Assembly (NCBI GenBank): GCA_026125895.1
Contig: JAHCKG010000017.1
Location: 33,721 to 97,720, forward strand
DNA from: Pseudolabrys sp.
GTDB taxonomy: Bacteria > Pseudomonadota > Alphaproteobacteria > Rhizobiales > Xanthobacteraceae
DNA: 64,000 nt
Direction of reading: 5' to 3'
Shown in pieces: positions 36,972 through 61,195 of this stretch (position 1 is its first letter; each line of letters begins with the position of its first letter). A program made the translations under genes and the position numbers. The notes beneath the pieces are model-generated. The model saw only the letters and a program-made list of their open reading frames with translations. It did not search any database and was not told the origin of the DNA.

Positions 36972-37463
36972 CTACGCGCGGCTGTTATGCGCCGGTGGCG
37001 TTCGCGCCAGTTTGTCGAACCGCGCCGAAGTGCGCTCGATGCGCTCCATTTCCACAGCGGACAGCAATTCGTCGACCCAGCTTTCGTGCATCGCAGCGAC
37101 GGCGCCGAACTGCGCGCGGCCTTCGCCCGTGAGCTTGACGATGAAGCGTCGCCGGTCTCCCGCCGCGCTTTCCCGGGCGACGTATCGCTTCACCAGCAGG
37201 CGGTCGATGATGCCGGTAACATTGCCGTTCGAGACCATGAGGGCTTGCGACAGCGCCGTCATCGTCATGCCGTCCGGGTGTCGGTCGAGCGCGGCCAGCA
37301 CGTCGAACTGCGGCAGAGTCATATCGAACCGGTCGCGCAACCTCTTGCGCAGCTCCGCCTCGATCACCTGCCGCGCCAGCAGCAGGCGGATCCACAAGCG
37401 CAGCCGCTGCTTGCGCAGCGGACGCGCGGCACCCGGACTTGCGGATTTGGCCGCGCCCACCAC
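36972..37463 (-). CDS. MarR-family transcriptional regulator of the downstream catabolic island
   Basis: 163-residue winged-helix dimeric regulator. Helix-turn-helix and wing are seen at MTLPQFDVLAALDRHPDGMT, LMVSNGNVTGIIDRLLVKRY and AGDRRRFIVKLT. It starts with GTG after AGGGGTGAT and is divergent from iorA across 126 bases that hold an 18-bp palindrome (37512-37529). The same palindrome occurs before four other transcription units of the 37-62 kb island, so this protein is the best candidate for their common repressor. MarR proteins are usually released by aromatic acids or CoA thioesters. The regulon assignment is inference from shared sites. Confidence 0.88.
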   Translation of the reverse strand: MVGAAKSASPGAARPLRKQRLRLWIRLLLARQVIEAELRKRLRDRFDMTLPQFDVLAALDRHPDGMTMTALSQALMVSNGNVTGIIDRLLVKRYVARESAAGDRRRFIVKLTGEGRAQFGAVAAMHESWVDELLSAVEMERIERTSARFDKLARTPPAHNSRA

Positions 37464-37511
37464 GTCAACATCACCCCTGACAGGAACCGAGTTGACCTAT
37501 AGCATACGGAA

Positions 37512-37529
37512 TGTTTTAAGGTTGAAGCA
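37512..37529. promoter_or_regulatory. MarR-type operator site A with iorA promoter
   Basis: TGTTTTAAGGTTGAAGCA matches the consensus TATTTTAAGNYTAAAAYA at 15 of 18 positions. A -35 box TTGACC at 37492-37497 with a 17-base spacer puts the -10 (TTTAAG, 37515-37520) inside the site, so a bound protein would block RNA polymerase at iorA. The site also lies 48 bases before the MarR start, fitting autoregulation. A wider inverted repeat CGGAAT/ATTCCG encloses it. Confidence 0.6.
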
Positions 37530-37589
37530 ATTCCGGAGCCTTATGGCCAATCCGGCCGGCGCGCCAGCCTCCGGGCCTGGGACTTGAGA

Positions 37590-39740
37590 ATGGCCGAACG
37601 TTCGTTTGCCAAAGAAGTTCGGGACCTCGAACTCGGCGAAGGCCAGGAGTTCCGGGGCGAAGGCATCCTCGCGCTGACCAAGGCCCTGCTGCAATCCGGC
37701 GTCGCCTATGTCGGCGGATATCAGGGCTCACCCATCTCCCATCTGATGGACGTTCTATCCGACGCCCAGGAACTGTTGGGCAAACTGGGCGTCCAGTTCT
37801 CCGCGTCCGCGTCGGAGGCCGCCGCTGCCGCCTCGCTGTCGGCGTCGATGATGTACCCGATCCGCGGCGCGGTGACCTTCAAGTCCACCGTCGGCACCAA
37901 TGTCGCGTCGGACGCGCTGGCCAACCTTGCCTCCTCCGGCGTGGTCGGCGGTGCCCTGATCATCCTCGGCGAGGATTACGGCGAAGGCTCCTCGATCATG
38001 CAGGAGCGCAGCCACGCCTTCGCCATGAAATCGCAAATGTGGCTGCTCGATCCGCGGCCTGACCTGCCCTCCATCGTCAAGGCGGTGGAAGACGGCTTCG
38101 AACTGTCGGAAGCCTCCAACACGCCGGTGATGCTGGAGGTGCGCGTGCGGTCCTGCCACGTCCATGGCTCCTTCATCGCCAAGGACAACAAGCGTCCGGC
38201 CTTCACGCTGCGTGAGGCGCTGGAAAACCCGGTCCGCGACGTCAACCGCATCGTGCTGCCGCCCGCCTCCTACATTCAGGAGAAGGAGAAGATTGAGAAG
38301 CGCTGGCCGGCCGCGGTCGAATTCATCAAGAGTCGCAAGCTCAACGAATTCTTCGACGGCGACCTGACCGACGTTGGCATCGCCGTGCAGGGCGGCATGT
38401 ATAACGGCGTGATCCGCGCGCTGCAGCGGCTCGGCCTCGCCGACGTCTGGGGCAAGACACGCATCCCGCTCTACGTCATGAACGTCGCCTACCCGCTGAT
38501 CGACGACGAACTCACGCAGTTCTGCGCCGGCAAGCGCGGCGTACTGATCGTCGAGGAAGGCCAGCCGGAATATATCGAGCAGGCGGTCAACACCATTTTG
38601 CGCCGCCGCGACATCCCGACCCGCATCTTCGGCAAGGACGTGCTGCCGATGGCCGGCGAATATACCGCCGACGTGATGCTCAAGGGCGTGCGCGATTTCC
38701 TCTCGGCCGCGCTGCCGTCGGCGCTGTCCGATGCGAGCCGCGCGCCGAACGTGCCGGCCATCGCCGACGATCCGCGCGTCAAGGCGCTGACCGGCGTCGT
38801 ACCACCGCGCCCGCCGGGCTTCTGCGTCGGCTGCCCCGAGCGTCCGATCTTCGCTGCGGTGAAACTGGTCGAGAAGGAGCTCGGCCAGCATCACATCGCC
38901 GCCGATATCGGCTGCCACCTGTTCTCGATCCTGCCGCCGTTCAACATCGGCGCCTCGACCATGGGCTATGGCCTCGGCCCCGCTTCGGCGGCGGCCTTCA
39001 ACGTGCCGTCGTCGAAGAAGTCGATCTCGTTCATCGGCGACGGCGGCTTCTGGCACAACGGCCTGACCACCAGCATCGGCAACGCCGTCTACAACAAGCA
39101 TGACGGCGTCATCGTCGTCGTCGACAATTACTATGCGTCGGCGACCGGCGGCCAGGACATCCTGTCCTCGCGCGCCGACAACGCGACGCGCTCGACACAG
39201 CATCCAATTACCAAGGCGGTCGAAGGCATCGGCGCCACTTGGGTGCGCCAGGTCGATCGCACCTACGACGTCGGCAAGATGCGCGACACGCTGAAGGAAG
39301 CGCTGACCGACAATTCGCCCGGCCCGAAAGTCATCGTCGCCTCGTCGGAATGCATGCTCAACAAACAGCGCCGCGAGAAGCCGCTCTTCAACAAGGCGGT
39401 GAAAGGCGGCCAGCGCATGGTGCGCGAGCGCTACGGCGTCGATGAGGATGTCTGCACCGGCGATCACGCCTGCATCCGCCTTTCCGGCTGCCCGTCGCTG
39501 ACGATCAAGCACAGCGACGATCCCTTGAAGGACGATCCGGTCGCCGCCGTGGACAATGGCTGCGTCGGCTGCGGCAATTGCGGCGAGGTCGCGGAAGCCG
39601 CGGTGCTGTGCCCGTCGTTCTATCGCGCCGAGATCATCCATAACCCGACGAGCTTCGACCGATTCATGGCGCGCATCCGCGGCGCGGTGATCGGCTTCCT
39701 GCAGCGCCGGCGCGCGCGCCACGCGCTTGCCCTCTCCTGA
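37590..39740 (+). CDS. iorA: indolepyruvate ferredoxin oxidoreductase alpha subunit-like (TPP and Fe-S)
   Basis: 716-residue thiamine-diphosphate enzyme that oxidatively decarboxylates an aryl 2-oxoacid to its acyl-CoA. The N-terminal pyrimidine-binding domain (GYQGSPISHLMDVL) is followed by a middle domain and the TPP/Mg-binding GDGGFWHNGLTTSIGN...VVVDN. The C-terminal ferredoxin-like part carries CTGDHACIRLSGCP and CVGCGNCGEVAEAAVLC. ATG 37590 is used; a TTG at 37584 is less likely. It heads an operon with iorB under site A. Likely substrates are indolepyruvate, phenylpyruvate, or an arylglyoxylate such as isatinate (inference). Confidence 0.87.
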   Translation: MAERSFAKEVRDLELGEGQEFRGEGILALTKALLQSGVAYVGGYQGSPISHLMDVLSDAQELLGKLGVQFSASASEAAAAASLSASMMYPIRGAVTFKSTVGTNVASDALANLASSGVVGGALIILGEDYGEGSSIMQERSHAFAMKSQMWLLDPRPDLPSIVKAVEDGFELSEASNTPVMLEVRVRSCHVHGSFIAKDNKRPAFTLREALENPVRDVNRIVLPPASYIQEKEKIEKRWPAAVEFIKSRKLNEFFDGDLTDVGIAVQGGMYNGVIRALQRLGLADVWGKTRIPLYVMNVAYPLIDDELTQFCAGKRGVLIVEEGQPEYIEQAVNTILRRRDIPTRIFGKDVLPMAGEYTADVMLKGVRDFLSAALPSALSDASRAPNVPAIADDPRVKALTGVVPPRPPGFCVGCPERPIFAAVKLVEKELGQHHIAADIGCHLFSILPPFNIGASTMGYGLGPASAAAFNVPSSKKSISFIGDGGFWHNGLTTSIGNAVYNKHDGVIVVVDNYYASATGGQDILSSRADNATRSTQHPITKAVEGIGATWVRQVDRTYDVGKMRDTLKEALTDNSPGPKVIVASSECMLNKQRREKPLFNKAVKGGQRMVRERYGVDEDVCTGDHACIRLSGCPSLTIKHSDDPLKDDPVAAVDNGCVGCGNCGEVAEAAVLCPSFYRAEIIHNPTSFDRFMARIRGAVIGFLQRRRARHALALS

Positions 39741-39753
39741 CGCGGCGCCGCCC

Positions 39754-41295
39754 ATGACCGCGCCCGCTCCCGCGATATCCCTCGATACGGCCAAGCCGCT
39801 CGCCATTGCGGTGCTGGCGATGGGCGGCCAGGGCGGCGGCGTGCTGGTGGATTGGATTGTCGCGTTGTGCGAGGCGCAAGGCTGGGCCGCGCAATCGACC
39901 TCGGTGCCCGGTGTCGCGCAACGAACCGGCGCCACGATCTATTACATCGAGGCGCTGCCGCTGCCGCCGAACGCGCCGCCCGGGCTCAAGCCGGTGCTGT
40001 CGCTGATGGCCGTGCCGGGCGAAGTCGATATCGTCATCGGCGCCGAGTTCATGGAAGCCGGCCGCGCCATCCAGCGCGGGCTGGTGACGCCGGATCGCAC
40101 GACGCTGATCGCCTCCTCGCACCGCGCTTATGCCGTGGTCGAAAAGCAGACGCCCGGCGACGGCATCGGCGATGCGCCGACCATGCTCGCGGCGGCGCAG
40201 GCGACCGCGAAGAAGCTCGTCGCCTTCGACATGGCCGCCGTCGGCGACAAGACCGGCAGCGCCATTTCGGCCGTGCTGTTCGGCGCGCTGGCCGGCGCCG
40301 ACGCCCTGCCCTTCCCACGCGAGGCTTACGAGGCGACAATCCGCGCCGCCGGCATCGGTGTCGAGCCGAGCCTGCGTGGTTTCGCCGCTGCTTACGAACG
40401 CGCCAGGACCGGCCCGCCGCTCGAGATCGCACCGCCGCCAAAGAAGGTCGTTACCGCGAAGACGCCGCAAGGCGAGTACGCCAAGTTTGTCGCGCGCGCG
40501 CAGGCAGAGTTTCCGGCCGAGATGCAGGCGATGCTTGCCGCCGGCTTGCAGCGCGTCGTCGATTTTCAGGATGTCGCCTATGGCCGCGAGTATCTCGATC
40601 TCGTCAAAGGCATCCTTGCCCTCGATCGCGCCGATCGTGGTTACGCACTCACGCAGTTGGCCGCCAAATACATCGCCGTCGCCATGGCCTATGACGACGT
40701 CTATCGCGTCGCCGACCTGAAGACGCGCGCCAGCCGCTTCGAGCGCGTGCGCCAGGAAGTCGGCGTCGCGCCCGATCAGCTCATCTACACCACCGAGTTC
40801 ATGCATCCGCGCATGGACGAAGTCGCCGGCTCATTGCCGAAGGCGCTCGGCCGTTTCATCGAGTCGCGGCCCGGCCAGTTCAAGACGCTCGACAGAATCG
40901 TCAATCGCGGCCGCCGCGTGCGCACCGGCACGATCCGCTGGTTCCTGATGCTGTATATCCTCGGCGGCCTCAAGCGCTTCCGGCGCGGCACTTTGCGTCA
41001 CGCCACCGAAGTGGCGCATCGCGACGCCTGGCTGGCGCGCGTCAGGCAAGCCGCGGCGAGGGATTACGACCTCGCCGTCGAGCTGCTGAACAACCGCCGT
41101 CTCGTCAAAGGCTATTCCGACACCCATGCGCGCGGGCTGTCGAAGTTCGACCGTGTCATGGCGGCCGCCGACAAGCTCGAAGGCCGGCCCGACGCCGCCG
41201 AATGGGTGCGCCGCCTGCGTGAGGCCGCCCTCAAGGATGAGGAAGGCGTCGCGCTCGACGGCGCGCTCAAGACCGTCGACAGTTTTTTGCATTAA
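39754..41295 (+). CDS. iorB: indolepyruvate oxidoreductase beta subunit-like with long C-terminal domain
   Basis: 513 residues. The first roughly 200 (AIAVLAMGGQGGGVLVDWIV, AEFMEAGRAIQRGLVTPDRT, DMAAVGDKTGSAISAVLFGAL) are the gamma/beta pyruvate-oxidoreductase domain that completes the IorA active site. The rest (about 230-513) is a helical extension of the DUF6537 kind found in proteobacterial members and absent from archaeal IorB. ATG 39754 is 13 bases after the iorA stop. A large inverted repeat follows its end. Confidence 0.85.
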   Translation: MTAPAPAISLDTAKPLAIAVLAMGGQGGGVLVDWIVALCEAQGWAAQSTSVPGVAQRTGATIYYIEALPLPPNAPPGLKPVLSLMAVPGEVDIVIGAEFMEAGRAIQRGLVTPDRTTLIASSHRAYAVVEKQTPGDGIGDAPTMLAAAQATAKKLVAFDMAAVGDKTGSAISAVLFGALAGADALPFPREAYEATIRAAGIGVEPSLRGFAAAYERARTGPPLEIAPPPKKVVTAKTPQGEYAKFVARAQAEFPAEMQAMLAAGLQRVVDFQDVAYGREYLDLVKGILALDRADRGYALTQLAAKYIAVAMAYDDVYRVADLKTRASRFERVRQEVGVAPDQLIYTTEFMHPRMDEVAGSLPKALGRFIESRPGQFKTLDRIVNRGRRVRTGTIRWFLMLYILGGLKRFRRGTLRHATEVAHRDAWLARVRQAAARDYDLAVELLNNRRLVKGYSDTHARGLSKFDRVMAAADKLEGRPDAAEWVRRLREAALKDEEGVALDGALKTVDSFLH

Positions 41296-41485: not shown

Positions 41486-42214
41486 TCAAATCACAATCGA
41501 ACCAACGCTCGAGCCGCCGCAGACGAACAGGGTCTGCCCGGTGACGAACGAATTCGCCGGATCGGCGAAGAACAGCACGGCGCGAGCGACGTCGTCGCTG
41601 CGGCCGAGGCGCTTCACCGGGATCGCTGCCGCCAGACTCTGCTCGCGCGGATCGCCCACAGGGATGACGCCGCGAAACATATCGGTGTCGCCGATCGGTC
41701 CCGGCGCTACCGCATTCACCGTGATGCCAGCGGGCGCCAGCTCCAGCGCCCAGCTCCGCACCAGGCCGACGACGCCGGCCTTGGTCGAGCCGTAAGCCGT
41801 GCGGTTGGCCAGCCCTAGCGCGCCGCGCGTCGACATCAGCACGATGCGGCCGAAGCCGCGCTCCTTCATGCCCGGCAGCACCGCCTGGGTAATCGTCAGC
41901 GCCGCGCCGATGTGGAGCTGCGTCAGCGCCTGCAGATCCTCGATCTTGGTCTGCTCGATGCTCGCCGGGCGGATGGTGCCGGCGTTGTGCACGATATGCG
42001 TCACGGAGAAGCGTTTGGCGACGTCGGCGGCGGCCTGCGCCACCGCGTTGTTGTCCAGGAGATCGACCTCGACGCCGTGCAACTTCGGGGCGGCATCCTT
42101 CGGCTTCTGCCGGTCGAACACGACGACCTCGTAGCCCGCGCCGAGCAATTGCCGCGCGATCTCGGCGCCGATGCCGGAAGCGCCGCCGGTGACGATAGCC
42201 GTGTGCCCGCTCAT
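41486..42214 (-). CDS. SDR-family oxidoreductase
   Basis: 242-residue classical short-chain dehydrogenase: cofactor motif TGGASGIG, HNAG, catalytic Ser in LMSTRGAL and YGSTK (Tyr-x3-Lys), all intact. ATG 42214 overlaps the cyclase stop as ATGA. It is the last gene of the seven-gene minus-strand unit that starts after operator B at 48355. It may oxidise a hydroxy group formed by the dioxygenase, or act on a hydroxyacyl-CoA intermediate. Confidence 0.88.
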   Translation of the reverse strand: MSGHTAIVTGGASGIGAEIARQLLGAGYEVVVFDRQKPKDAAPKLHGVEVDLLDNNAVAQAAADVAKRFSVTHIVHNAGTIRPASIEQTKIEDLQALTQLHIGAALTITQAVLPGMKERGFGRIVLMSTRGALGLANRTAYGSTKAGVVGLVRSWALELAPAGITVNAVAPGPIGDTDMFRGVIPVGDPREQSLAAAIPVKRLGRSDDVARAVLFFADPANSFVTGQTLFVCGGSSVGSIVI

Positions 42215-43002
42215 GCGCCCTCCACCAGCGCCAACACGCGCAACGGACTGCCGGAGCCCTGCTTGATCTTCAGCGGCGCCGAGAAGATCACGGCCCCCTT
42301 CGGCGGCAGTTGGTCGAGATTGGTCAGGCACTGCAGGCCGAAGCGGCCCTTGCCGTGCATATAGAAGTGCGCCGGGAATGGCGGATTGAAGTGATGGCCC
42401 TGGCCGTGATCGGTGCCGATGGTTTCGGTGCCGAAGCCGTGGACGTCGCGCTCCTCCACCAGCCATTTTACCGCTTCAGGCACCGGGCCTGGCGTGTGCG
42501 CGCCATCGTCGCGCATGCCGGCATATTCGGCATAAGGCTTCTTCGACCAGTCGGTGCGCAGCAGCACCCACTCGCCGGCGCCGATGCGGCCGTGTTTGGC
42601 TTCCCAGGCTTGCAGGAACGGTACCGTCAGTTCGAAATCGGCATTGGCGGCGCTCTCAGCCGAGCAATCCACCACATTGGCCGGCGCGATGAACTTGTGC
42701 GGATCGATCGTATCGACGGCGTTGTTCGGCAGGTCCTTGCCGGAGATCCAGTGGATCGGCGCGTCGAAATGCGTGCCCGCATGTTCGGAGACCGAGAAGT
42801 TGTTCCAGTACCACGCCGGACCGCGCTCGTCGTAGCGCGAGATTTCCTCGAGGCGGAACGGCGCCGCCTGGCCGAACTCCGGCGGCAGCACGATGGTCGG
42901 GAATTCCTGTGTCAAGGTCTGCGTGAGATCGACCACCTTGATCGCGCCCGACGCGACGCGCTGGGCAAAGCCGAGAAGATCGGAAGCCGGATTGGCAACC
43001 AT
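42211..43002 (-). CDS. cyclase-family metal hydrolase (kynurenine formamidase / isatin hydrolase superfamily)
   Basis: 263-residue hydrolase with the family metal motif HAGTHFDAPIH (H74, H78, D80, H84). Members open amides or lactams such as N-formylkynurenine and isatin, and some are cyclases. Near the C-terminus IGTDHGQGHHFNPPFPAH supplies further His residues. A strong AGGAGGG precedes the ATG. In an operon with a Rieske dioxygenase, a lactam-ring opening step (isatin or oxindole type) is attractive, but other amides or lactones are possible. Confidence 0.85.
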   Translation of the reverse strand: MVANPASDLLGFAQRVASGAIKVVDLTQTLTQEFPTIVLPPEFGQAAPFRLEEISRYDERGPAWYWNNFSVSEHAGTHFDAPIHWISGKDLPNNAVDTIDPHKFIAPANVVDCSAESAANADFELTVPFLQAWEAKHGRIGAGEWVLLRTDWSKKPYAEYAGMRDDGAHTPGPVPEAVKWLVEERDVHGFGTETIGTDHGQGHHFNPPFPAHFYMHGKGRFGLQCLTNLDQLPPKGAVIFSAPLKIKQGSGSPLRVLALVEGA

Positions 43003-43011: not shown

Positions 43012-44253
43012 CTATCCTGCCAATTCGCGCTCGAGCGCCTTCGGATTGGCGGCAAGCCGCGCGCGGATATCCTCGGCGATGTCACCGACGAACACGTCCT
43101 CGAGCCCGCGCTGCAACGCCTGCACCACCGCCTTGGCCAAAGCCGCCGGCGTCACTTTCGGCGGCGGCACGGTCTGGAACCATTCGGTGTCGAGCGGGCC
43201 GAAGAACACATTCAACACCCGCACGCCGCCGGGTCGCAATTCGGCGCGCAGGCATTGCGCCGCCGACAGCGACGCCGCCTCAGCCGCCGAATAGGCGCCG
43301 TATTCCGGCCAGTTCATCAGCGCATGCACCGACAGGAGATTGACGAAGGCCGTCGCCGAATTGACGCCGTCGGCGCCGCGGCCGCGCATCGCCGGGCCGA
43401 AGGCTTGCGCCAGCCGCATCAAGCCGAAGTAACGGACATCCATTTCCTCGCGCGCCACCGTCACGCCGTGGCGCTGCATGATGCCGCCGGCGCGGATGTG
43501 CTCGGCGGTGTTGACGACGATGTCGATGCGGCCGCCGTTCTGCTCGGCCTGCTCGGTGACCGACTCGGAGTCGGTGACGTCGAGCGGCACGATCTCGACC
43601 CGCTCGATCTTCTTCAATTCGTCCTGCCCGGGAAACGGCTTCCACGGATCGGCAATGCCGACGAAGACGATGTTGCAGCCGGCGTCCGAGAAGGCTTTGG
43701 CCATCGCCTGCCCAACCGGCGTGCGGCCGTCGGTGATCAGGACGCGGCGGAATTTCGGATCGCAGGTCATTTCGCGCAAATGCGGATCGTCGGCCATGTT
43801 GGGGGTGTCTTTCTCCGGCAGCGCAATCATCACCGGCGCGCCGCCTTTGTCGAGCTTGAGATCGAGGCGAACGCGCTGGCCTTCCAGCACATCGCCGTGA
43901 AGATGCGAGAGGATGACCGGGCCGGCGTCGAGCTTGGTGAGGCCCACGCGCCAGGGCGTGCGCTCGCGAAAGTACGGGTCCGTCGAGGTGCGGATCGTGG
44001 TCTCGGCAAGCAAGGTGCCGTTGTTGTCCACCGGCTTGAACGGAACGCGAGCCGACAGACAGTTCGGGCAGGCATCGCGCGGCGGATAGAACGCCGTGCT
44101 GCAATCGTCACAGGTCTGCAGTTCGAAACGACCTTCCGCCGCCGCCTTGGTCAGGCCATGCGCGGTGCGGCTGCGCACCGACTGCGGATACAGCGGCTGC
44201 TGCGTGCGCTTCAGCGGATCCTTGCGCTTGGGGCGGATGAGCGGCGCGGTCAT
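43012..44253 (-). CDS. fusion of zinc-ribbon/OB-fold (DUF35) domain with a degenerate SDR domain
   Basis: 413 residues. The N-terminal part has a zinc ribbon (C48, C51, C62, C65) and an OB fold (about 75-150), as in partners of thiolases. Residues from about 168 form an SDR domain, but the glycine motif is degenerate (ITDGRTPVGQ) and the catalytic Tyr-x3-Lys reads YSAAE (Y321, E325), so the Lys is missing. The SDR half is probably structural or has altered chemistry. The ATG overlaps the thiolase-like stop as ATGA, so the two proteins are likely a complex, as in thiolase-DUF35 pairs. Confidence 0.8.
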   Translation of the reverse strand: MTAPLIRPKRKDPLKRTQQPLYPQSVRSRTAHGLTKAAAEGRFELQTCDDCSTAFYPPRDACPNCLSARVPFKPVDNNGTLLAETTIRTSTDPYFRERTPWRVGLTKLDAGPVILSHLHGDVLEGQRVRLDLKLDKGGAPVMIALPEKDTPNMADDPHLREMTCDPKFRRVLITDGRTPVGQAMAKAFSDAGCNIVFVGIADPWKPFPGQDELKKIERVEIVPLDVTDSESVTEQAEQNGGRIDIVVNTAEHIRAGGIMQRHGVTVAREEMDVRYFGLMRLAQAFGPAMRGRGADGVNSATAFVNLLSVHALMNWPEYGAYSAAEAASLSAAQCLRAELRPGGVRVLNVFFGPLDTEWFQTVPPPKVTPAALAKAVVQALQRGLEDVFVGDIAEDIRARLAANPKALERELAG

Positions 44254-45419
44254 GAGGCCCTCGCCAGCACGGCGGCGCCAGACGACAGGCCGCGGTCGTA
44301 ATTGATCATGCCGAAACCGGAGACGACGGCGATCTTCGCATCCTTCACCGGCTTGCCGATCGGCTGATCCGTCAACTGCCGGATCGCCTCGGTGATGCCG
44401 AGATGGCCGCCAGCGGCGCCCGCCTGCCCGGTCGAGAGCTGGCCGCCCGAGGTGTTGTGCGGGAACGTGCCGTCGGTGGTGAAGGTGTGCTGGCGGATGA
44501 AGTCCTTGCCCTCGCCCTTCTTGCAGAAGCCGAGGTCCTCGAACTGCATGGTGATGATCACCGGATAGTCGTCATAGGTCTCGAGCACATCGACATCGTC
44601 CGGCTTGATGCCCGCCATCTGCCAGAGGTCGTCGACATCCACGGCCCAGCCGCCGCGCGTCTGGATCGGATCGTCGGCAAAGGCGTGGTGACGTTCGATG
44701 GTGGAGAGCAGCTTCACCGCCGGCAGCTTGAGCGACTTCGCCACATCCTCGCGGCACACCAGAAAAGCCTCGGCGCCGGCACAGGGCATGACGCAATCGA
44801 ACAGATGCAGCGGATCGGAAATCGGCCGCGCCTTCATGTATTCGTCGAGCGTCAGTTTCTTCTTCATCATGGCGAAGGGGATCGACAGCGCGTTATCGCG
44901 CTGCGCGACGCAGATCTTGCCAAAGTCTTCGCGCGTCACCCCGTACATGTTCATGTAGTTCTGGGTGATCAGCGCAAAGGAAGCATTGGCCCCGCCCGAG
45001 CCATAAGGATAGACCGCGTCCTGCGCGAAGCGCGAGAACGACGACAGCGTCTTGCGGAACGAATCGACATGGTTGGTGTCGCCGGCGACCACCGCGACGA
45101 ACTGCGCATCGCCCGCCTGCACGGCGCGGGCGGCGCGGCGCAGACCGACAACGCCGCTCACCCCGCCCATCGGCACATGATCGAGCCAGCGCGGCGACAG
45201 GCCGAGATGCTGTGTCATGCCGACGGCGCTGTCGGCGCCGGTGGTGAAGCTCGACAGTACCAGGCCGTCGATGTCCTGCGGGCGAATGCCGGCGGTCTTG
45301 GTCAGCTGATGCAGCGCCCGGCCGATCCACCAATGCGCGGTGTCCGTAGAATAACGGACATAGGGCACCGTGACGGGAGCGCAGACGACGACGCCGTCAT
45401 AGGGAAGACGGGTTGTCAT
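44250..45419 (-). CDS. thiolase-fold protein lacking thiolase catalytic residues
   Basis: 389-residue thiolase-superfamily protein (SCP-x/acetyl-CoA acetyltransferase-like). The nucleophile loop reads MGGVSG (about 84-89) where active enzymes have ACASG; the HDCF-like segment reads TYDDYP; and the GHP motif is replaced by TGQAGAAGG. All three catalytic positions are thus changed, although the fold and the C-terminal SGFGMINYDRG segment look conserved. It overlaps the DUF35-SDR fusion gene. A palindromic repeat lies directly upstream, within the operon. It may be an acyl-CoA scaffold or carry out a non-thiolase reaction. Confidence 0.8.
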   Translation of the reverse strand: MTTRLPYDGVVVCAPVTVPYVRYSTDTAHWWIGRALHQLTKTAGIRPQDIDGLVLSSFTTGADSAVGMTQHLGLSPRWLDHVPMGGVSGVVGLRRAARAVQAGDAQFVAVVAGDTNHVDSFRKTLSSFSRFAQDAVYPYGSGGANASFALITQNYMNMYGVTREDFGKICVAQRDNALSIPFAMMKKKLTLDEYMKARPISDPLHLFDCVMPCAGAEAFLVCREDVAKSLKLPAVKLLSTIERHHAFADDPIQTRGGWAVDVDDLWQMAGIKPDDVDVLETYDDYPVIITMQFEDLGFCKKGEGKDFIRQHTFTTDGTFPHNTSGGQLSTGQAGAAGGHLGITEAIRQLTDQPIGKPVKDAKIAVVSGFGMINYDRGLSSGAAVLARAS

Positions 45420-45426
45420 GCCTTCT

Positions 45427-45522
45427 GTCGTCCCGGGCGAGCGAAGCAAGACCCGGGACCCATACGCCGCAGCAGAATTGACATGCTGCGGAGTATGGGT
45501 CCCCGCTTTCGCGGGGACGACG
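45427..45522. repeat. palindromic intergenic repeat inside the dioxygenase operon
   Basis: GTCGTCCC at the left end pairs with GGGGACGAC at the right, and GACCCATACGCCGCAGCA pairs with TGCTGCGGAGTATGGGTC around a short AT loop. Inner hairpins are CCCGGG/CCCGGG and CCCCGC/GCGGGG. Read as protein it gives the VVPAKAGTH phrase common as junk extensions in Rhizobiales. It separates the beta subunit (45550) from the thiolase-like gene (45419) and may attenuate or stabilise the operon mRNA. Confidence 0.75.
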
Positions 45523-45549
45523 ACGGAGAGGTTGATTGGGCGTCGAACA

Positions 45550-46032
45550 TCACATGAACAACTGGATGTTACCGAAAGCCGCCTCGCAATTGACGAGGTC
45601 GACACGCTTCAGCTTGATCTTCAGGACGCCGCCGACGAGGACGAGCGTATGCGTCGCCCAGGCGGCGTAAAGCTGCTGCTCGTCGTAACGCGTCTCGATG
45701 TAATGCATCGGCGTCCAGGTGACGTATTCGCCCTTGGCATCGTCGCGGCCGTCGATCTGCGGCGTCTGCAGCACGTGATGGCAGCGGCTCTTCGGCTTCT
45801 GCGAGAAGGTGCGGTTGCCCTTGAGCCGCTCGACGCGGATCTGCAGCAACAGCTTGTCCTCATACATCAGCGAGCCTACCAGCTTGGGGTCGGTCTGCCC
45901 CCACTCCAGCGGCATCCAGTAATAGGCGTCGTCGGCATAGAGCGCGAGCCACTCCTCGAAGCGATGCTGGTCGAGCAGCCGCGCCTCGTGGATGACGAAA
46001 TCGATGATCTCTTTGTCGGTCGGGCTTGTCAT
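45550..46032 (-). CDS. ring-hydroxylating dioxygenase beta subunit
   Basis: 160-residue small subunit of the Ring_hydroxyl_B / NTF2-like fold, for example FVIHEARLLDQHRFEEWLAL then YADDAYYWMPLEW near the start and SRCHHVLQTPQI in the middle. It has no catalytic role of its own and stabilises the alpha3beta3 oxygenase. The gene follows the alpha subunit by 11 bases and precedes the palindromic repeat. Confidence 0.88.
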   Translation of the reverse strand: MTSPTDKEIIDFVIHEARLLDQHRFEEWLALYADDAYYWMPLEWGQTDPKLVGSLMYEDKLLLQIRVERLKGNRTFSQKPKSRCHHVLQTPQIDGRDDAKGEYVTWTPMHYIETRYDEQQLYAAWATHTLVLVGGVLKIKLKRVDLVNCEAAFGNIQLFM

Positions 46033-52337: not shown

Positions 52338-52376
52338 TAATCCACCACCGTATCGCGGCGATTTGAGCAGGTACCG

Positions 52377-53420: not shown

Positions 53421-55186
53421 ACCGGCAGATCACCCTCGCCGCCGGCGTCGTCGCCCTCCTGCTGCTGGCGGGCGCGCCGTTCTATCTGGCGCCGTTCTCG
53501 ATCACGCTGCTCAATTACATCGGCGTCTATTCGCTGATCGCGCTCGGCCTCGTGCTGCTCACCGGCAATGCCGGCATGGTGTCGTTCGGCCAGGCGTCGT
53601 TCATGGGCATCGCGGCCTATGCCACCGGCTGGACCTCGGCGGTGATGGGCTATTCGCCCTGGCTCGGGCTGGTTCTCGCGCTGGTGCTGACCGGGCTGAT
53701 CGCCGCCATTCTCGGGGCGGTCACGCTACGCCTCGGCGGCCACTTCCTGTCGCTGAGCACGATCGCCTGGGGCCTCGCGATCTATTTCAGCTTCGGCAAC
53801 ATCCCGGGCCTCGGCGCCTTTGACGGCATCCCGTCACTGCCGCCGATCTCGATCGGCAGCTTCGCCCTCGTCGATAGCGGACAGATCTTCTACCTGATCT
53901 GGGTCTCGCTGCTGCTAACGATGCTCGCGGTCCATAACCTGCTCGACTCGCGCGTCGGCCGTGCGCTGCGGGCGCTGCGCGGCGGCAACGCGCTGGTGGA
54001 ATCGCTCGGCGTCAACGCGCTGCGGGTCCGCCTCGCGACCTTCGTGATTGCCGCTTTGTGCGCAGCCTTGTCGGGTTGGCTCTACGCCCATATGGGCCGC
54101 TTCGTGTCGCCGACGCCGTTCGACGTCACCATGAGCATCATCTTCCTGATGATGGCGATGATCGGCGGCTCGGGCTATCTGCTCGGCGCCGTGGTCGGCG
54201 CCGCCATCATCATCCTGCTCAAGAACGGCATTCAGGACGTGCTGCCGCAGATCGCGCCCGGCGCCTCCGGCCAGCTCGAAGTCGTGGTCTTCGCCTCGCT
54301 GTTCATCCTGTTTCTGCAGCGCGCGCGCAACGGCATCGTCCCCTTCGTCGCGCAATGGATCCCCGAGCCGCATCGCGAACGGCCGCCGCAGGCCGAAGCG
54401 CTGCCGCGCCAGCCGCAACCGGCCAAGGGCACCGTGCTGATGCAGGTCGAAGCCGCGAGCCGCCGCTTCGGCGGCCTGATCGCCGTCAACGACGTCAGCT
54501 TCGAGGTGCGCGCAGGAGAGATCCTGGCGCTGATCGGCCCGAACGGCGCCGGCAAGACGACGATGTTCAACTTGATCACCGGCGCGCTGCCACCGAGCGG
54601 CGGCCGCATCGTCTTCGCCGGCAAGGACATCACCAAATCCGGCGCTTGCGACATCGCCGGCGCCGGCATCGCCCGCACCTTCCAGCACGTCAAGCTGCGG
54701 CCGAAGATGACGCTGATCGACAACGTGCTGCTCGGCACCTATGGCCGCACCAAGTCCGGCTTCATCAGAAGCGCGCTGCGCCTCGACCGCGCCGAGGAAG
54801 CGCGCGCGCGCCACGAGGCGATGCGCCAGCTCGATCGCGTCGGTCTCGGCGACCGGCCTTACGAACTCGCCGGCAACCTGCCGCTCGGCAATCAGCGCGT
54901 GCTCGAAATCGCCCGCGCGCTCGCCGCCGATCCGGTGCTGCTCGTGCTCGACGAACCCGCCGCCGGCCTGCGCCGCCAGGAGAAGCTGGCGCTCGCCGAA
55001 CTGCTGCGCACCTTGCGCGCCGAAGGCCTGACGATCCTGCTGGTCGAACACGACATGGAATTCGTCATGGGTCTCGTCGACCGCATCGTCGTCATGGAGT
55101 TCGGCTGCAAGCTGTGCGAAGGCGATCCGGCCGCGGTGCGCGCCGACGCCCGCGTGCAGGAAGCCTATCTCGGAGGCGTCGCCTGA
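53417..55186 (+). CDS. livM: LivM-LivG fusion: ABC permease joined to ATP-binding domain
   Basis: 589 residues. The first roughly 310 form a LivM permease (LTGNAGMVSFGQASFMGIAA; EAA-like ALRGGNALVESLGVNALRV). A Pro/Gln/Arg-rich linker (about 318-345) leads to a LivG ATPase with Walker A GPNGAGKTT, a modified signature LPLGNQRVLEIARAL, Walker B LLVLDEPAAGL and switch LVEHDMEFV. The fusion fixes one permease to one ATPase. It overlaps the neighbours as ATGA and TGATG. Confidence 0.88.
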   Translation: MNRQITLAAGVVALLLLAGAPFYLAPFSITLLNYIGVYSLIALGLVLLTGNAGMVSFGQASFMGIAAYATGWTSAVMGYSPWLGLVLALVLTGLIAAILGAVTLRLGGHFLSLSTIAWGLAIYFSFGNIPGLGAFDGIPSLPPISIGSFALVDSGQIFYLIWVSLLLTMLAVHNLLDSRVGRALRALRGGNALVESLGVNALRVRLATFVIAALCAALSGWLYAHMGRFVSPTPFDVTMSIIFLMMAMIGGSGYLLGAVVGAAIIILLKNGIQDVLPQIAPGASGQLEVVVFASLFILFLQRARNGIVPFVAQWIPEPHRERPPQAEALPRQPQPAKGTVLMQVEAASRRFGGLIAVNDVSFEVRAGEILALIGPNGAGKTTMFNLITGALPPSGGRIVFAGKDITKSGACDIAGAGIARTFQHVKLRPKMTLIDNVLLGTYGRTKSGFIRSALRLDRAEEARARHEAMRQLDRVGLGDRPYELAGNLPLGNQRVLEIARALAADPVLLVLDEPAAGLRRQEKLALAELLRTLRAEGLTILLVEHDMEFVMGLVDRIVVMEFGCKLCEGDPAAVRADARVQEAYLGGVA

Positions 55187-55902
55187 TGGCCCTGCTCTCC
55201 ATCGAAAACGTCAGCGTCAGCTACGGCAAGGCCGAGGCCGTGCGCAACGTCTCGCTCGAAGTCGATCGCGGCCAGATCGTCACAGTCATCGGGCCGAACG
55301 GCGCCGGCAAGACCAGTTTGCTGACCAGCGCCATCGGTATGATCCCGGCGTCGGGACGCGTCGTCTTCGACGGCGTCGACATCACCGCGCTGCCGACCGA
55401 AGACCGCATCGAGATGGGCTTCTGCCTGGTGCCGGAGCGGCGCGAACTGTTCTCGGAAATGTCGGTCTACGACAATCTGCTGCTCGGCGCCTACAGCCGG
55501 CGCGATGGCTCGGCGGCGATCAAGGCCTCGATGGAAGAGGTCTATGGCCGCTTCCCGCGCCTGCGCGAGCGCCACGCCCAAAAGGCCGGCACCTTGTCCG
55601 GTGGCGAGCGGCAGATGCTGGCGCTCGGCCGTGCGCTGATGGGCAGACCGAAGCTGCTGATGCTCGACGAGCCGAGCCTCGGTCTTGCGCCGCTCATCAC
55701 CCGTGAAATCTTCCGCATCATCGCCTCGCTGAACGAAAGCGGCGTGTCGATCCTGCTGGTCGAACAAAACGCGCGTGCGGCCTTGGAAACCGCAAATTTC
55801 GGGTATGTGATGGAGACCGGTGAGATCGTGCACTCCGGTTCGTCTGCCACGCTGATCGACGACCCGCGCTTGATCTCGACTTATCTCGGCGGTGCGCACT
55901 GA
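55186..55902 (+). CDS. livF: branched-chain-type ABC transporter ATP-binding protein LivF
   Basis: 238-residue ATPase: Walker A GPNGAGKTS, signature LSGGERQM, Walker B LLMLDEPSLGLAP and switch LVEQNARAAL. Starts at the TGATG junction with the fusion gene. Completes the importer of the operator-D operon, with one LivG fused and one LivF free. Confidence 0.92.
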   Translation: MALLSIENVSVSYGKAEAVRNVSLEVDRGQIVTVIGPNGAGKTSLLTSAIGMIPASGRVVFDGVDITALPTEDRIEMGFCLVPERRELFSEMSVYDNLLLGAYSRRDGSAAIKASMEEVYGRFPRLRERHAQKAGTLSGGERQMLALGRALMGRPKLLMLDEPSLGLAPLITREIFRIIASLNESGVSILLVEQNARAALETANFGYVMETGEIVHSGSSATLIDDPRLISTYLGGAH

Positions 55903-55945
55903 CGGATCTGCTCCCTCCGCCGCGCCGCTGCCGATGGAGGCCCGG

Positions 55946-57154
55946 ATGACCGACGTCCACATTCCGTACGGCGCCTACTGGGCGACCCCTTTCGCCAAAT
56001 GGCAGGGTTCGCTGGCGCATCTGCATTCGCTGCGGCTGGCCGCACATGTGACGAAGCACGCACTGGCGAAACGCAATATCGCGCCGGACGCCATCGACTT
56101 CGGCGTGCTCGGCACCACCGTGCCACAGAAGGGCGCGTTTTACGGCCTGCCCTGGCTGATGGGAGAAGCCGGCGCCGGCCATGTCGGCGGCCCGACCATC
56201 AACCAGGCTTGCGCCACCGGCGTGCGTATCATGGACGTCGCGACGTCGGAAGTCATGGCGGGGCGCGCCAAGGTCGCGCTGGCGGTCGCCACGGACCGTA
56301 CCTCGAACGGACCGCACCTCTATTATCCGGCGCCGAATTCGCCGGGCGGCACCGGCGAGCACGAGGACTGGGTGCTCGACAATTTTTCCCGCGACCCCTA
56401 CGCCAAGCTGGCCATGGTTGAAACCGCGGAGAACGTCGCGCGCAAGCACAATGTCGGCACGGCCGAACAGAACGCCGTGACGGTGCGCCGCTACGAGCAA
56501 TATGCCGAAGCGACGGCGAACGACGCCGCCTTCCTGCGCCGCTTCATGGACCTGCCCTTCGACGTGCCGGATGCGCGCTTTGCCAAGAGCGTCGGCCAGC
56601 TTTCGGGCGACGAAGGCGTGCACGCCACCAGCGCCGACAAGCTCGCGGCGTTGAAGCCCGTAATGCCCGGCGGCACCGTGACCTACGGCACGCAGACCCA
56701 TCCCGCCGACGGCATGGCCGCGATGGTGATGACCAGCGCCGAACGCGCGCGCGACTTGTCGAGCAACCCGGATATCGAGATCCGCATTCTCAGCTATGGC
56801 CAGGCCCGCGTCGATCGCGGCTACATGCCGGAGGCGCCCGTGCCGGCGGCCCGCGCCGCGCTCGACGGCGCCGGCATTGCCGCGTCCGATCTTGCGGCGA
56901 TCAAGTCGCACAATCCTTTCGTCATCAACGACATCGTGTTCGCCCGCCACTTCAATCTCGACGTCATGGGCATGAACAATTACGGCTGCTCGCTGGTGTG
57001 GGGCCATCCGCAAGGCCCCACCGGCCTGCGCGGCGTCATCGAACTGATCGAGGAACTGGCGCAACGCGGCGGCGGCCTCGGCCTGTTTCAGGGCTGCGCC
57101 GCCGGCGACACCGCGATGGCCGTGGTGCTGTCGGTTACCGACCGGAAACGCTGA
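55946..57154 (+). CDS. thiolase (acetyl-CoA acetyltransferase family) with intact catalytic residues
   Basis: 402 residues. Nucleophile Cys89 in NQACATG, the His of KSHNPFVIND, GHPQGPTGLR and the C-terminal Cys384 in QGCAAGD are all present, so this copy should be active, unlike the thiolase-like protein at 44250. GGAGG lies six bases before ATG 55946; the ATG at 55934 is less well placed. It would cleave a 3-oxoacyl-CoA thiolytically. It follows the transporter genes and precedes an acyl-CoA ligase, so the operon couples uptake, activation and cleavage. Confidence 0.87.
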   Translation: MTDVHIPYGAYWATPFAKWQGSLAHLHSLRLAAHVTKHALAKRNIAPDAIDFGVLGTTVPQKGAFYGLPWLMGEAGAGHVGGPTINQACATGVRIMDVATSEVMAGRAKVALAVATDRTSNGPHLYYPAPNSPGGTGEHEDWVLDNFSRDPYAKLAMVETAENVARKHNVGTAEQNAVTVRRYEQYAEATANDAAFLRRFMDLPFDVPDARFAKSVGQLSGDEGVHATSADKLAALKPVMPGGTVTYGTQTHPADGMAAMVMTSAERARDLSSNPDIEIRILSYGQARVDRGYMPEAPVPAARAALDGAGIAASDLAAIKSHNPFVINDIVFARHFNLDVMGMNNYGCSLVWGHPQGPTGLRGVIELIEELAQRGGGLGLFQGCAAGDTAMAVVLSVTDRKR

Positions 57155-57158
57155 CGCC

Positions 57159-58682
57159 GTGACAACACCGCCCTTCCCGACTGTCGTGCATATGCTCGCA
57201 GTGGGAGCGGCGGCTGCCCCGGATCGCGAAGCCTTGCGCTGCGGCGGCGAGTCCCTGAGCTATCGCGATTACGCCGCTTGCGTGGCCGGCTTTGCGGGCG
57301 AGCTCACTGTCGCCGTCGGGCCGGATGTCGCGCAATCGCGCATCGCGGTGGTGATGGCGAATTCAATCGACACCGCGGTCGCCATCTATGCCGTGGCGGC
57401 CACCGGCGCGCAGCTCGTGCCGCTGAACCCGGCTTACACAGCGCACGAGCTCGAGCCGATCCTGAGCGATGCCGATCCGGCGCTCATCGTCTTCGACGTC
57501 GCGCTTGAAGGCATGCTGCGAGAAGTCGCCGCGCGCATCGGCGTCGAGCGCCTCATCGCCATCGGTCCCGACAAGCGCCTTACCGCGTGGCATGGCAGCG
57601 GCCGCGCCCTCGACAGCTTCCCCGATCCCGACAACCTCGGTCTGCTGCAATATACCGGCGGCACCACCGGCCGCTCCAAGGGCGTCAACCTGACGCATCG
57701 CGCCGTCGCCACCAATGTGGCGCAGCGCGATGCCCTGCTGCCGAGCGAGGACGGCGAGCGCATCCTCGCCGTGACGCCGCTCTATCACTCCTATGCCATG
57801 GCGATGGGGCTGCATCTCGCCAGCCACTGCCGCGGCACCCTCGTCCTGCTGCCGCGCTATCACCCCAAGGATGTGCTCGATCTCATCGCCCGCGAGCGCA
57901 TCACGCTCTTTTCCGGCAGCCCGACTTTGTTCACCGGCCTGATGGGGCATGCCGACTTTGCTGCAACGGATTTCTCGTCGTTGAAGCTGTGCTTCTCCGG
58001 CGCCTCGGCGCTGCCGGTCGAGACGCTGAGACGTTGGGAAGAGGCCACCGGCTGCGGCATCTGTGAAGGTTACGGTCAGACCGAAGCCGGCCCGGTGCTG
58101 ACCTACAATCCGCGTCACGGGGTGCGCAAGGCGGGCTCGGTCGGCACGGTGTTGCCGTGGACCGAAGTCCAGATCGTCGATGTCGAGACCGGCACGAAAG
58201 TGCTGCCGGTCGGTGAGACCGGTGAAGTGCGCGCCCGCGGTCCGCAGATCATGAGCGGTTACCGCAACCGCCCCGAAGAGACGGCGACGGCGCTGCGCGA
58301 CGGCTGGCTCTATACCGGCGACATAGGCGCCTTCGACGAGGACGGCTATCTCTTCATCCGCGACCGCAAGAAGGACATGGCCATCGTCGGCGGCTTCAAT
58401 GTCTATCCGCGCGAGATCGAGGAAGTGCTGTGCGCGCATCCCGCCATAGCCGAAGCCGCCGTTGTTGCCGTCGCCGATCTTTATCGTGGCGAGGCGCTGC
58501 ACGCCTATGTGACGTTGAAAGACAATGCCGGCGCCGATGCCGACAGCCTGCTCGATTTTCTCAAGGAACGGCTGACGAAATACAAGGTGCCGGCCCGCAT
58601 CGTCATCACGGACGCCATCCCCAAGACCAGCGTCGGTAAGATCGACAAGGTGGCGCTGCGGGCGGTGGCTCAGGCGAAGTAA
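57159..58682 (+). CDS. AMP-dependent acyl-CoA synthetase/ligase (second copy)
   Basis: 507-residue ANL ligase, closer to long-chain/4-coumarate-CoA ligases than the copy at 49255. Motifs are QYTGGTTGRSKG, EGYGQTEAGP, YTGDIGAFDEDGYLFIRDRK and the catalytic Lys of KTSVGKIDK. The start is GTG, 4 bases after the thiolase stop. The last gene of the operator-D operon; a palindromic repeat and a GIY-YIG gene follow it. Confidence 0.87.
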   Translation: MTTPPFPTVVHMLAVGAAAAPDREALRCGGESLSYRDYAACVAGFAGELTVAVGPDVAQSRIAVVMANSIDTAVAIYAVAATGAQLVPLNPAYTAHELEPILSDADPALIVFDVALEGMLREVAARIGVERLIAIGPDKRLTAWHGSGRALDSFPDPDNLGLLQYTGGTTGRSKGVNLTHRAVATNVAQRDALLPSEDGERILAVTPLYHSYAMAMGLHLASHCRGTLVLLPRYHPKDVLDLIARERITLFSGSPTLFTGLMGHADFAATDFSSLKLCFSGASALPVETLRRWEEATGCGICEGYGQTEAGPVLTYNPRHGVRKAGSVGTVLPWTEVQIVDVETGTKVLPVGETGEVRARGPQIMSGYRNRPEETATALRDGWLYTGDIGAFDEDGYLFIRDRKKDMAIVGGFNVYPREIEEVLCAHPAIAEAAVVAVADLYRGEALHAYVTLKDNAGADADSLLDFLKERLTKYKVPARIVITDAIPKTSVGKIDKVALRAVAQAK

Positions 58683-59077: not shown

Positions 59078-60064
59078 CTACCGCCTGACCACCGGAGGCC
59101 TGGCGAGGCCGAGCCCATCGAGCGCCTTGAGGAAGGCCGACAGCCGCTCGCGGCGATAGGCCGGCACGTCCATCGCCGTGAAATCGTAGAAGCCCTTGCC
59201 GTCGCGCAGGCCGTTACGCCCCGCCGCCATGTTGTCCTTGACGATCTGCGGCGCTTCGAAGCGATCGCTCTTCATCGCGTCGGTCATGTAGCGGCTGGCG
59301 TAGAACAGGATGTCGCCGCCGCCCCAGTCGATGAATTCGAGCAGGCCGAGAATGGCGAAGCGGAAACCGAAGCCGTATTTCACCGCCTTGTCGATATCCT
59401 CGGCGGAGGCGACGCCCTCCTCCACCAGCCGCGCCGCCTCGTTCATGGCGAGCGCCTGGATGCGCGGCACGATGTAGCCGGGCGAGGCCTTGCACTCGAC
59501 CGGCACCTTGCCGATCGATTCCAGCAACGCCTTGAACTCGGCCATGACGCCGCGGTCGGTGTCGTCGGTCGCGCTCAGTTCGATCAGCGGCACGATGAAG
59601 GCCGGATTGAGCCAATGCGCGTTGAGGAAGTGGCTCGGCCGGCCGCTGTAGCCCGACAGTTCGGTCGAAAGAAATGTCGAGGTTGTGGAAGCGATGATGG
59701 CTTCCTTGCCGGCGACCTTGTCGATCACCGCGAAGGCTTCCCTTTTAGCTTCCACTGTTTCCGGCACGGCTTCGAAGATGATGCGCACGCCGTCGAGGCC
59801 GGCGCCGATCTCGTCGAAGCCGTAGCAGGACACGCGCGCCATAATCGGATCGATGTCGGCCACGTCGAAGCCGCCGATATCCGCCACCGATTTGAGCGAG
59901 GCGCGGATCTCGCGGTCGCAGTCGGCAAACAACCGCTGCTGCCCGTCCTTGTCGCGCGGCTTGCCGTCGATCAGGCGCACGTCGTGCCCGGCATAGGCAA
60001 AAGCGTGGGCGATGCCGCGGCCCATGCGGCCGGCGCCGACGCAGGCGATCACCGGCGCGCTCAT
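59078..60064 (-). CDS. 3-hydroxyacyl-CoA dehydrogenase family protein
   Basis: 328-residue NAD-dependent dehydrogenase. Rossmann motif VGAGRMGRGIAHAFAYAGHDVRLID, the catalytic-His region NAHWLNPAF (usually HFFNPP), and CKASPGYIVPRI at the start of the C-terminal domain. It would oxidise a 3-hydroxyacyl-CoA to the 3-oxo form before thiolysis. The ATG overlaps the stop of the opine-dehydrogenase-like gene as TGATG; both are under operator E. Confidence 0.87.
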   Translation of the reverse strand: MSAPVIACVGAGRMGRGIAHAFAYAGHDVRLIDGKPRDKDGQQRLFADCDREIRASLKSVADIGGFDVADIDPIMARVSCYGFDEIGAGLDGVRIIFEAVPETVEAKREAFAVIDKVAGKEAIIASTTSTFLSTELSGYSGRPSHFLNAHWLNPAFIVPLIELSATDDTDRGVMAEFKALLESIGKVPVECKASPGYIVPRIQALAMNEAARLVEEGVASAEDIDKAVKYGFGFRFAILGLLEFIDWGGGDILFYASRYMTDAMKSDRFEAPQIVKDNMAAGRNGLRDGKGFYDFTAMDVPAYRRERLSAFLKALDGLGLARPPVVRR

Positions 60065-61143
60065 CAGATGCCCTCGCGCAGCAGCGCGGCGAGGCTCTCG
60101 CGGCTTTCACCGGCGAGACCGAGCGTTCCCATGGTGCGGCCGGTCTTGCGGAAGTCGTTGCCGCTCGCCGCGCCGGCGATGGCGAGAAGCCCGGCCGCCA
60201 CCGGCGTCGGCACGCCCGCCCATTCGCCGAGCGAGACGATCAGGGCGAGACCCATGCCGACATCTTCCTGCAGATAGCGATGCGTCTTGAGGTCGAGATG
60301 CTCGTGCCAGTCGCCGGAGTCGACCAGCTTGTCATGCGCCAGCTTGCCGTACATCCAGTTCGACGTCTTGTAATGATCGGCCAGCGGAAAGTGCGGCGCC
60401 TTGTAGCCGAGTGCTTCGCGCAGCGCGATGCGTTCGGCGTCGAGCGCGTCGTGCACGCGCCGCACCGACGGCTGCGTGCCTTCCTTGTGAATGTCCCAGC
60501 GCGGAAAATGCTCGATCGGCGCCGCGCTCATGATGATCAGCGGCGGATGGATGATCGGCCCGGCATTCATGAGCGCGCCGGACAGCGCATCCTCGACCGG
60601 CTCGATCGCGCCCGGGAATGCCGCCGAAATCACCTTGAGCGCCTTGTCGGTGAGCCGCGCCGGGAACACGCCGGTCGGCAGCCGCGTCGCGCGCGTCGTG
60701 ATGGCGACCTCGTTCGGCCCGCGCTTGCGCGTCAGCCACGGCAGCGTGCCGGTCTCGGCGATGGCGATGTCCGCCTTGCAGCCATGCGCGCGCAGCACCT
60801 TCATCATCAGGTAGGAGCCGAAGGTACCGGGCGGCAGATAGATCACCTGCCCGTCGGTCAGGTGCGGCGCCAGCGCGACCGCGAGATCCTCCTGCGCGAA
60901 GGCCGGCACCGGCGCGACGATCAGTTCGGCGCCGCGCACCGCTGCGCCGAGGTCCGTCGTTGGCTTGGCGATCTTGACGTCACGCACGCCCTTGAAGTCG
61001 CGTACCGTGATCGTGCCGCTCTCGAGCACCGGCGCCAGCGCCGCGGCGTCGCGCCGCCAGAAGCGGACCTCGTGCCCGGCTTCCGACATATCGACGGCCG
61101 CCGCGTAAGAACCGTTGCCGCCACCCAGAACCGCGATTTTCAT
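60064..61143 (-). CDS. NAD/NADP octopine/nopaline dehydrogenase family protein
   Basis: 359 residues. N-terminal Rossmann domain with GGGNGSYAAAVDMSEAGHEVRFW, then a helical C-terminal domain with a His/Asp-rich middle (ADHYKTSNWMYGKLAHDKLV), as in opine dehydrogenases. This fold reduces or oxidises amino-acid/2-oxoacid adducts, but relatives also act on simple hydroxy acids. ATG 61143 is preferred; the upstream open frame crosses operator E (61178-61195). First gene of a two-gene unit with the hydroxyacyl-CoA dehydrogenase. Confidence 0.83.
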   Translation of the reverse strand: MKIAVLGGGNGSYAAAVDMSEAGHEVRFWRRDAAALAPVLESGTITVRDFKGVRDVKIAKPTTDLGAAVRGAELIVAPVPAFAQEDLAVALAPHLTDGQVIYLPPGTFGSYLMMKVLRAHGCKADIAIAETGTLPWLTRKRGPNEVAITTRATRLPTGVFPARLTDKALKVISAAFPGAIEPVEDALSGALMNAGPIIHPPLIIMSAAPIEHFPRWDIHKEGTQPSVRRVHDALDAERIALREALGYKAPHFPLADHYKTSNWMYGKLAHDKLVDSGDWHEHLDLKTHRYLQEDVGMGLALIVSLGEWAGVPTPVAAGLLAIAGAASGNDFRKTGRTMGTLGLAGESRESLAALLREGI

Positions 61144-61177
61144 GAGGATTTTCTGCCTTCGACGATGCACCGGCAGA

Positions 61178-61195
61178 TATTTTAACCCTAAAACA
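61178..61195. promoter_or_regulatory. MarR-type operator site E
   Basis: TATTTTAACCCTAAAACA matches the consensus at 17 of 18 positions. It lies 34 bases before the opine-dehydrogenase-like start, and the candidate -10 (TAAAAT on the minus strand) is within the site, though no good -35 box is visible. The SDR gene upstream (61238) ends 42 bases away. Confidence 0.62.

Follow-up and report, generated by a model that had tools for sequence, protein, structure and literature searches.

A palindromic operator of the IadR2/ACMR MarR type probably ties auxin breakdown to its lower pathway in a Pseudolabrys genome

In Variovorax paradoxus CL14, which has one of the closest described systems, the MarR protein IadR (MarR_73) represses the iad locus and the auxin indole-3-acetic acid (IAA) lifts this repression (Conway et al. 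2022, PMC9613470). The same study found neither a ligand nor a DNA site for the second MarR of that locus, IadR2 or MarR_50. When this second MarR was deleted, gene 51 was the only one to rise strongly, the locus seemed to respond more strongly to IAA, and IAA was degraded faster. Here we analyse a palindrome, TATTTTA-N4-TAAAATA, that stands before five transcription units in a stretch of 64,000 nucleotides from Pseudolabrys sp. (assembly GCA_026125895.1, contig JAHCKG010000017.1, positions 33,721 to 97,720), hereafter the window, and that is probably the operator of IadR2/ACMR-type MarR proteins linking IAA breakdown with the lower pathway. The literature searched, which did not take in most subscription papers, yielded no account of this operator.

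MbdR and CouR have palindromic operators, the former being of the TetR family, unlike the clade-A MarRs treated below, and the ligand of CouR is an aryl-CoA. Both resemble the present system in the repressor control of a CoA-dependent aromatic pathway (for MbdR, PMC4424350), and CouR (PDB 6c28) is among the PDB matches listed for the window MarR. Judged by gene content, the window genes are an iad-like auxin degradation locus in the sense of PMC9613470, since the Rieske dioxygenase genes iadDE, iadC and iadAB are all present; the earlier sequence-only reading of this DNA had missed both the pathway and the distinction between IadR and IadR2. The nearest named relatives among the matches listed were Rhizobiales and Pseudolabrys metagenome-assembled genomes, with IadD 95-96% identical. 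The window IadD matched PDB 9o71 and 7yls/8h2t, which we take to be chains of Variovorax IadD, over residues 1-437 of 437 (E 1.5e-187 and 2.2e-185). The locus shares with the IadR/MarR_73 operon its iad-like gene content and a MarR adjoining iadA, but this MarR differs in clade, recognition helix and pocket. It is more like IadR2/MarR_50 in belonging to the same clade, standing at an iad locus and lacking the IAA-pocket residues, whereas Variovorax also has IadR repressing the iad operon and none was found in the Pseudolabrys genome (82% complete), in which an operator of the clade-A type precedes every iad unit.

The palindrome is a 7-4-7 dyad, and its window copies, together with the adjoining regulator gene, are as follows.

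36972..37463, minus strand: MarR-family regulator of clade A (IadR2/ACMR type), assigned by its recognition helix VSNGNVTGIIDRL, tree and pocket
37512..37529, no strand: weak operator copy TGTTTTAAGGTTGAAGCA between marR (minus) and iadA/iorA (plus), site centre 58 bp from marR and 63 bp from iadA
48355..48372, no strand: operator copy TATTTTAAGTCTAAAATA upstream of iadC in the iadCDE operon (minus), site centre 17 bp upstream of iadC
49228..49245, no strand: operator copy TATTTTAAGTTAGAAATA between the racemase-like gene (minus) and the acyl-CoA ligase gene (plus), site centre 60 bp and 18 bp upstream of them, respectively
50967..50984, no strand: operator copy CATTTTAAGATTAAAATA upstream of the Liv-type transporter/thiolase/ligase operon (plus), site centre 138 bp upstream of it
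61178..61195, no strand: operator copy TATTTTAACCCTAAAACA upstream of the opine-dehydrogenase/3-hydroxyacyl-CoA dehydrogenase unit (minus), site centre 44 bp upstream of the opine-dehydrogenase gene with its start set at 61143

These five coordinates and their match counts agree with those of the sequence-only reading, from whose pattern the copies depart by 3, 0, 2, 1 and 1 mismatches in coordinate order, and its view that a chance origin is most unlikely is borne out by 100 dinucleotide shuffles of the window, none of which contained a copy. By position weight matrix the copy at 37512 is weak (20.0), the other four scoring 29.8-36.0; a copy at the orthologous place is nevertheless kept in two relatives (22.0 in locus L051, 24.8 in L053). 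Counterparts of the copy upstream of iadC are present in L051, L052, L053 and L054, those of 49228 in L051 and L053 and, weaker, in L052 (18.9), those of 50967 in L051 and L053, and that of 61178 upstream of the opine-dehydrogenase gene in genomes G001, G002 and G003.

In the whole genome (4.52 Mb), the relaxed dyad with at most one mismatch gave eight sites against three for the reversed control. Six of the eight are the four strong window sites and two sites on contig C1 (C1:247400 and C1:250270), which are equal in strength to the window sites with scores of 35.5 and 32.3. At two and three mismatches the reversed control was equally frequent or more so (9 vs 7/5 and 19 vs 34), so that weak sites elsewhere in the genome are indistinguishable from chance. 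The claim that no copy lies elsewhere thus holds for the window, where a scan at up to three mismatches found only the five, and fails for the genome; the genome-wide search that the sequence-only reading had asked for confined the strong sites to two loci. Its single circuit of five units likewise keeps the shared operator-like element, while the ACMR operon and a Liv-type transporter each have a further strong site in front of them. A weak match at C49:117680 (L020 5681-5698; 19.5 bits) was set aside as a regulon site; it is flanked by a mandelate-racemase-like gene on one side and a GntR/aminotransferase gene on the other, and a further MarR gene lies some 3.5 kb off. The relaxed-dyad scan also returned C4:12340. 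Elsewhere, a 36.3-bit palindrome at L186 7797 (G003:C29:27796), with no iad or ACMR gene mapped as its neighbour, marks a possible further regulon member.

One of the C1 sites is flanked by genes for a Liv-type transporter and a cupin; the other separates an FAD monooxygenase gene from the operon ACMR-SDR-MarR-ECH-ACAD-ligase. The ACMR protein fuses an FAD monooxygenase to an old-yellow-enzyme domain, is accompanied by ECH, ACAD and ligase genes, and scored 1288 bits against NF006101 (cut-off 1078; NCBI name salicylyl-CoA 5-hydroxylase/oxidoreductase). From this pathway context we take its role to be in the breakdown of 2-aminobenzoyl-CoA, and the fusion is probably a 2-aminobenzoyl-CoA hydroxylase, the entry to the CoA-dependent anthranilate pathway. 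Such a role fits the anthranilate with which iad pathways end according to PMC11630574 and PMC12633357. Upper and lower pathway would then form one regulon of seven sites, which, taken with the operator assignment as a whole, we consider probable.

The C1 operon encodes a MarR with 63% identity to the window MarR over 123 residues and an identical recognition helix. The window protein scored 58.4 bits against Pfam MarR_2 (cut-off 27), a MarR winged-helix protein by this measure, and among the PDB matches listed for it 3boq was the best, 3cdh was much lower and 7kfo was absent. In a tree of 117 MarRs, with several long branches, two doubtful ones of them within clade A, and unsure deep joins, the window and C1 proteins fall inside a 57-row clade A (support 98/91) and the IadR rows outside it. 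The second MarR of Variovorax-type iad loci (G152, G315 and G245), on which MarR_50, identified by its position, was judged, belongs to clade A as well. In each of these three genomes, the first MarR has the recognition helix of MarR_73 (7kfo), and an IadD piece of 102 residues shares 90-93% identity with 7yls. The residues contacting IAA in MarR_73 include Tyr15, Ser28, His32, Trp45 and Arg46, as given in PMC9613470. At these positions the window MarR has Arg, Glu, Arg, Phe and Asp, and the window, C1 and second Variovorax-type MarRs all read Arg or Lys, Glu, Arg, Phe and Asp; because the pocket residues are absent, an IAA response through the window MarR is unlikely. A related dyad starts 24 bp upstream of the SDR gene beside the MarR_50-position gene in G152 (14.0 bits) and G245 (7.9 bits), a similar stretch was seen by eye in G315, and none was found there in four more distant genomes; by gene order, this SDR would be gene 51.

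The association between palindrome, MarR and ACMR extends across the class. In 385 genomes drawn over it, 71 have ACMR; the counts leave out the present genome and, as partial matches, five rows from four genomes (G392, G618, G335 twice, G622), G512 and G580 contribute two loci each, and a site is called at 15 bits or more. Such a site was present at 22 of the 29 best ACMR loci, beginning from 63 bp before to 1 bp after the estimated ACMR start, against a mean of 1.64 and a maximum of 3 in shuffled controls. A MarR with this helix type lay in the fetched stretch at 24 of the 29 loci, 20 of them with a site, and two of the four site-less loci showed a variant of the dyad (11.4 and 11.6 bits). 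For the five loci with no MarR nearby, a whole-genome clade-A profile search found one elsewhere in G343 and G487, where the site is present, and no clade-A MarR at E<=1e-15 for the three site-less loci, which belong to one genus. At 39 further, more distant ACMR loci (38 genomes) a site was seen in 15 of 34 with a MarR in the genome and 0 of 5 with none, G575 being counted among the latter with only a 64-bit MarR match. Altogether, sites occur at 37 of 60 ACMR loci in genomes with a clade-A MarR and at 0 of 8 in those with none, counts that carry no probability, the genomes being mutually related. The strict palindrome at up to two mismatches was present in 24 of 30 named genomes, mostly above the reversed control. 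The ACMR loci of G152, G245 and G315 have a further clade-A-type MarR, and the sites preceding ACMR there score 15.1, 15.1 and 17.6 bits.

Auxin-sensing IadR loci behave otherwise. Among the best 80 iad loci of a longer list, 29 have an IadR in the locus at 200 bits or more and 51 have none; an iad-upstream site of at least 17 bits was found at 0 of the 29 and at 32 of the 51, against 2/29 and 2/51 with one shuffle per locus. The corresponding counts are 2/29 and 34/51 at 15 bits, and 0/29 and 29/51 at 20 bits. A whole-genome profile search for IadR gave at most 78 bits in G000-G004, compared with 201-253 bits in eight IadR genomes; three of the eight rows of the profile derive from genomes searched, and scores of 110-114 bits, obtained for some genomes of Bradyrhizobium and of other groups, were left unclassified. 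Upstream of iadA, 13 loci of Achromobacter and Aromatoleum (L100, L101, L108, L109, L111, L112, L116, L117, L119, L121, L097, L103 and L106; within 4851-5120) share another conserved palindrome, ATGAAATTTCAT or a close variant of it, which is a candidate IadR operator. An alignment of the presumed iadR-iadA gap of Nitratireductor was coding-like and gave no footprint.

These comparisons suggest that one repressor family, unlikely to sense auxin, controls the whole auxin breakdown route. TATTTTA-N4-TAAAATA would be the operator of a MarR repressor clade whose commonest home, among the loci here, appears to be the ACMR operon; all five units of the auxin locus, on the way from IAA to anthranilate, would be preceded by this operator, with a paralog of the ACMR MarR beside iadA. 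Dimers of the window MarR, of the C1 MarR or of both may occupy these sites, close to the start codons, as repressors. They would be released by a compound further down the pathway rather than by IAA, the simplest choices being anthraniloyl-CoA and anthranilate. These two compounds are proposed because they fit a joint control of IAA breakdown and ACMR.

According to the sequence-only reading, the adjoining MarR was the natural regulator of the five units. The protein is indeed of the MarR type, marR diverges from iadA with a site in between, and the same layout recurs in L051. That it alone would govern the five window units, with the C1 locus a separate matter, is nonetheless unlikely, given that the C1 sites are equally strong and the C1 paralog has the same helix. 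Genome G003 weakens sole ownership further: its locus L053 keeps all five iad sites with the adjoining marR absent, and at E<=1e-10 the ACMR operon holds the only family MarR found in this genome. The left flank of L053 aligns at 81% with window 28001-30555, and 26 bp separate this match from the iad operator, so that the stretch with the tamA/tamB-like genes and marR is missing there. In G004 the only family MarR at that threshold adjoins ACMR in a divergent unit, and the fetched stretch around the iad palindromes on C22 holds no MarR. The adjoining protein is not the sole candidate regulator and was probably not the original owner of the sites. Ownership by an auxin-sensing IadR of the MarR_73 type, with IAA as inducer, would follow the precedent of CL14, but is very improbable here: the tree, the pocket and the profile search in G000-G004 speak against it as the palindrome's owner, no IadR locus among those compared has a strong iad-upstream copy, and another palindrome occupies the place before iadA in the Achromobacter and Aromatoleum loci.

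Several observations weigh against control by IadR2/ACMR-type MarRs. The link between MarR and palindrome is drawn from sequence, and in 23 of the 60 ACMR loci with a MarR the stretch scanned contains no site that reaches 15 bits, which would suit an unrelated regulator or an AT-rich element of no regulatory role; some of these ACMR genes may be internal to an operon. Such an origin is the least probable of the alternatives considered, as the sites lie near gene starts, are conserved in orthologous promoters and are missing at all eight ACMR loci in genomes lacking a clade-A MarR. The weight matrix comes from six of the seven sites found in this genome, which is itself incomplete, the reversed control outnumbers the palindrome in G008, G018 and G021, and the site upstream of the SDR gene reached 14.0 and 7.9 bits in two of seven genomes and stayed below 2 bits in five, G315 included. 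The contrast with IadR loci is blurred by the two that carry a site at 15 bits, by weak matches of 8-16 bits near their iad genes, and by a weak dyad of related form that scores 4.5-5.8 bits between iadR and iadA in G101, G285 and G207. Some of the 51 IadR-less loci are incomplete, and at least four genomes have or may have IadR elsewhere; the profile finds it in G025, G029 and G030, counted as having none in the locus. The ligand, finally, is a guess from gene context.

The remaining genes of the auxin locus, in window coordinates, are listed below.

37590..39740, plus strand: iadA, indolepyruvate ferredoxin oxidoreductase alpha-like (TIGR03336 below its cut-off; start at an in-frame ATG)
39727..41295, plus strand: iadB, iorB-like (POR, DUF6537)
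41486..42466, minus strand: SDR dehydrogenase (real start probably more downstream)
42211..43002, minus strand: iadI-like, putative cyclase family (PF04199)
43012..44253, minus strand: ChsH2-type zinc ribbon/OB fold fused to SDR
44250..45605, minus strand: thiolase-like
45550..46032, minus strand: iadE, Rieske dioxygenase small subunit (PF00866)
46044..47357, minus strand: iadD, Rieske dioxygenase large subunit (PDB chain matches)
47379..48347, minus strand: iadC reductase
48404..49177, minus strand: Asp/Glu racemase-like
49255..50919, plus strand: acyl-CoA ligase (PRK06155 above its cut-off)
51114..55186, plus strand: Liv-type ABC transporter genes (solute-binding protein, permease, permease-ATPase)
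55892..58682, plus strand: thiolase and second acyl-CoA ligase, in the same operon as the Liv-type transporter
59078..61143, minus strand: 3-hydroxyacyl-CoA dehydrogenase and opine-dehydrogenase-like genes (opine-dehydrogenase start set at 61143)

A tamA/tamB-like pair (Omp85, TamB; 30648-36963) adjoins marR. An AT-rich near-palindrome of 14.8 bits, TACTATAATATTGTAATA, lies at 6407-6424 in a stretch with no called gene, and about 950 bp at 24428-25381 have no called open reading frame and fall inside a 2-kb bin with unusual AT skew (0.252). In Variovorax-type loci, including L230/L231 and L232/L233, a second iadDE-like Rieske pair stands about 10 kb from the first, its IadD-like part being about 50% identical to the window IadD.

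Our results raise the tentative idea, to which we give somewhat less than even weight, that IadR2/MarR_50-type proteins are sensors of the end of auxin breakdown and that the Pseudolabrys-like iad locus has moved wholly into an anthraniloyl-CoA regulon. If so, Pseudolabrys-like bacteria would start auxin breakdown with no sensing of auxin itself. For the second MarR of auxin-degrading loci, the analysis proposes a family of operators, suggests the ACMR operon as the usual target and points to a few candidate ligands, and a lower-pathway regulator placed over auxin breakdown would alter the timing of plant auxin removal.

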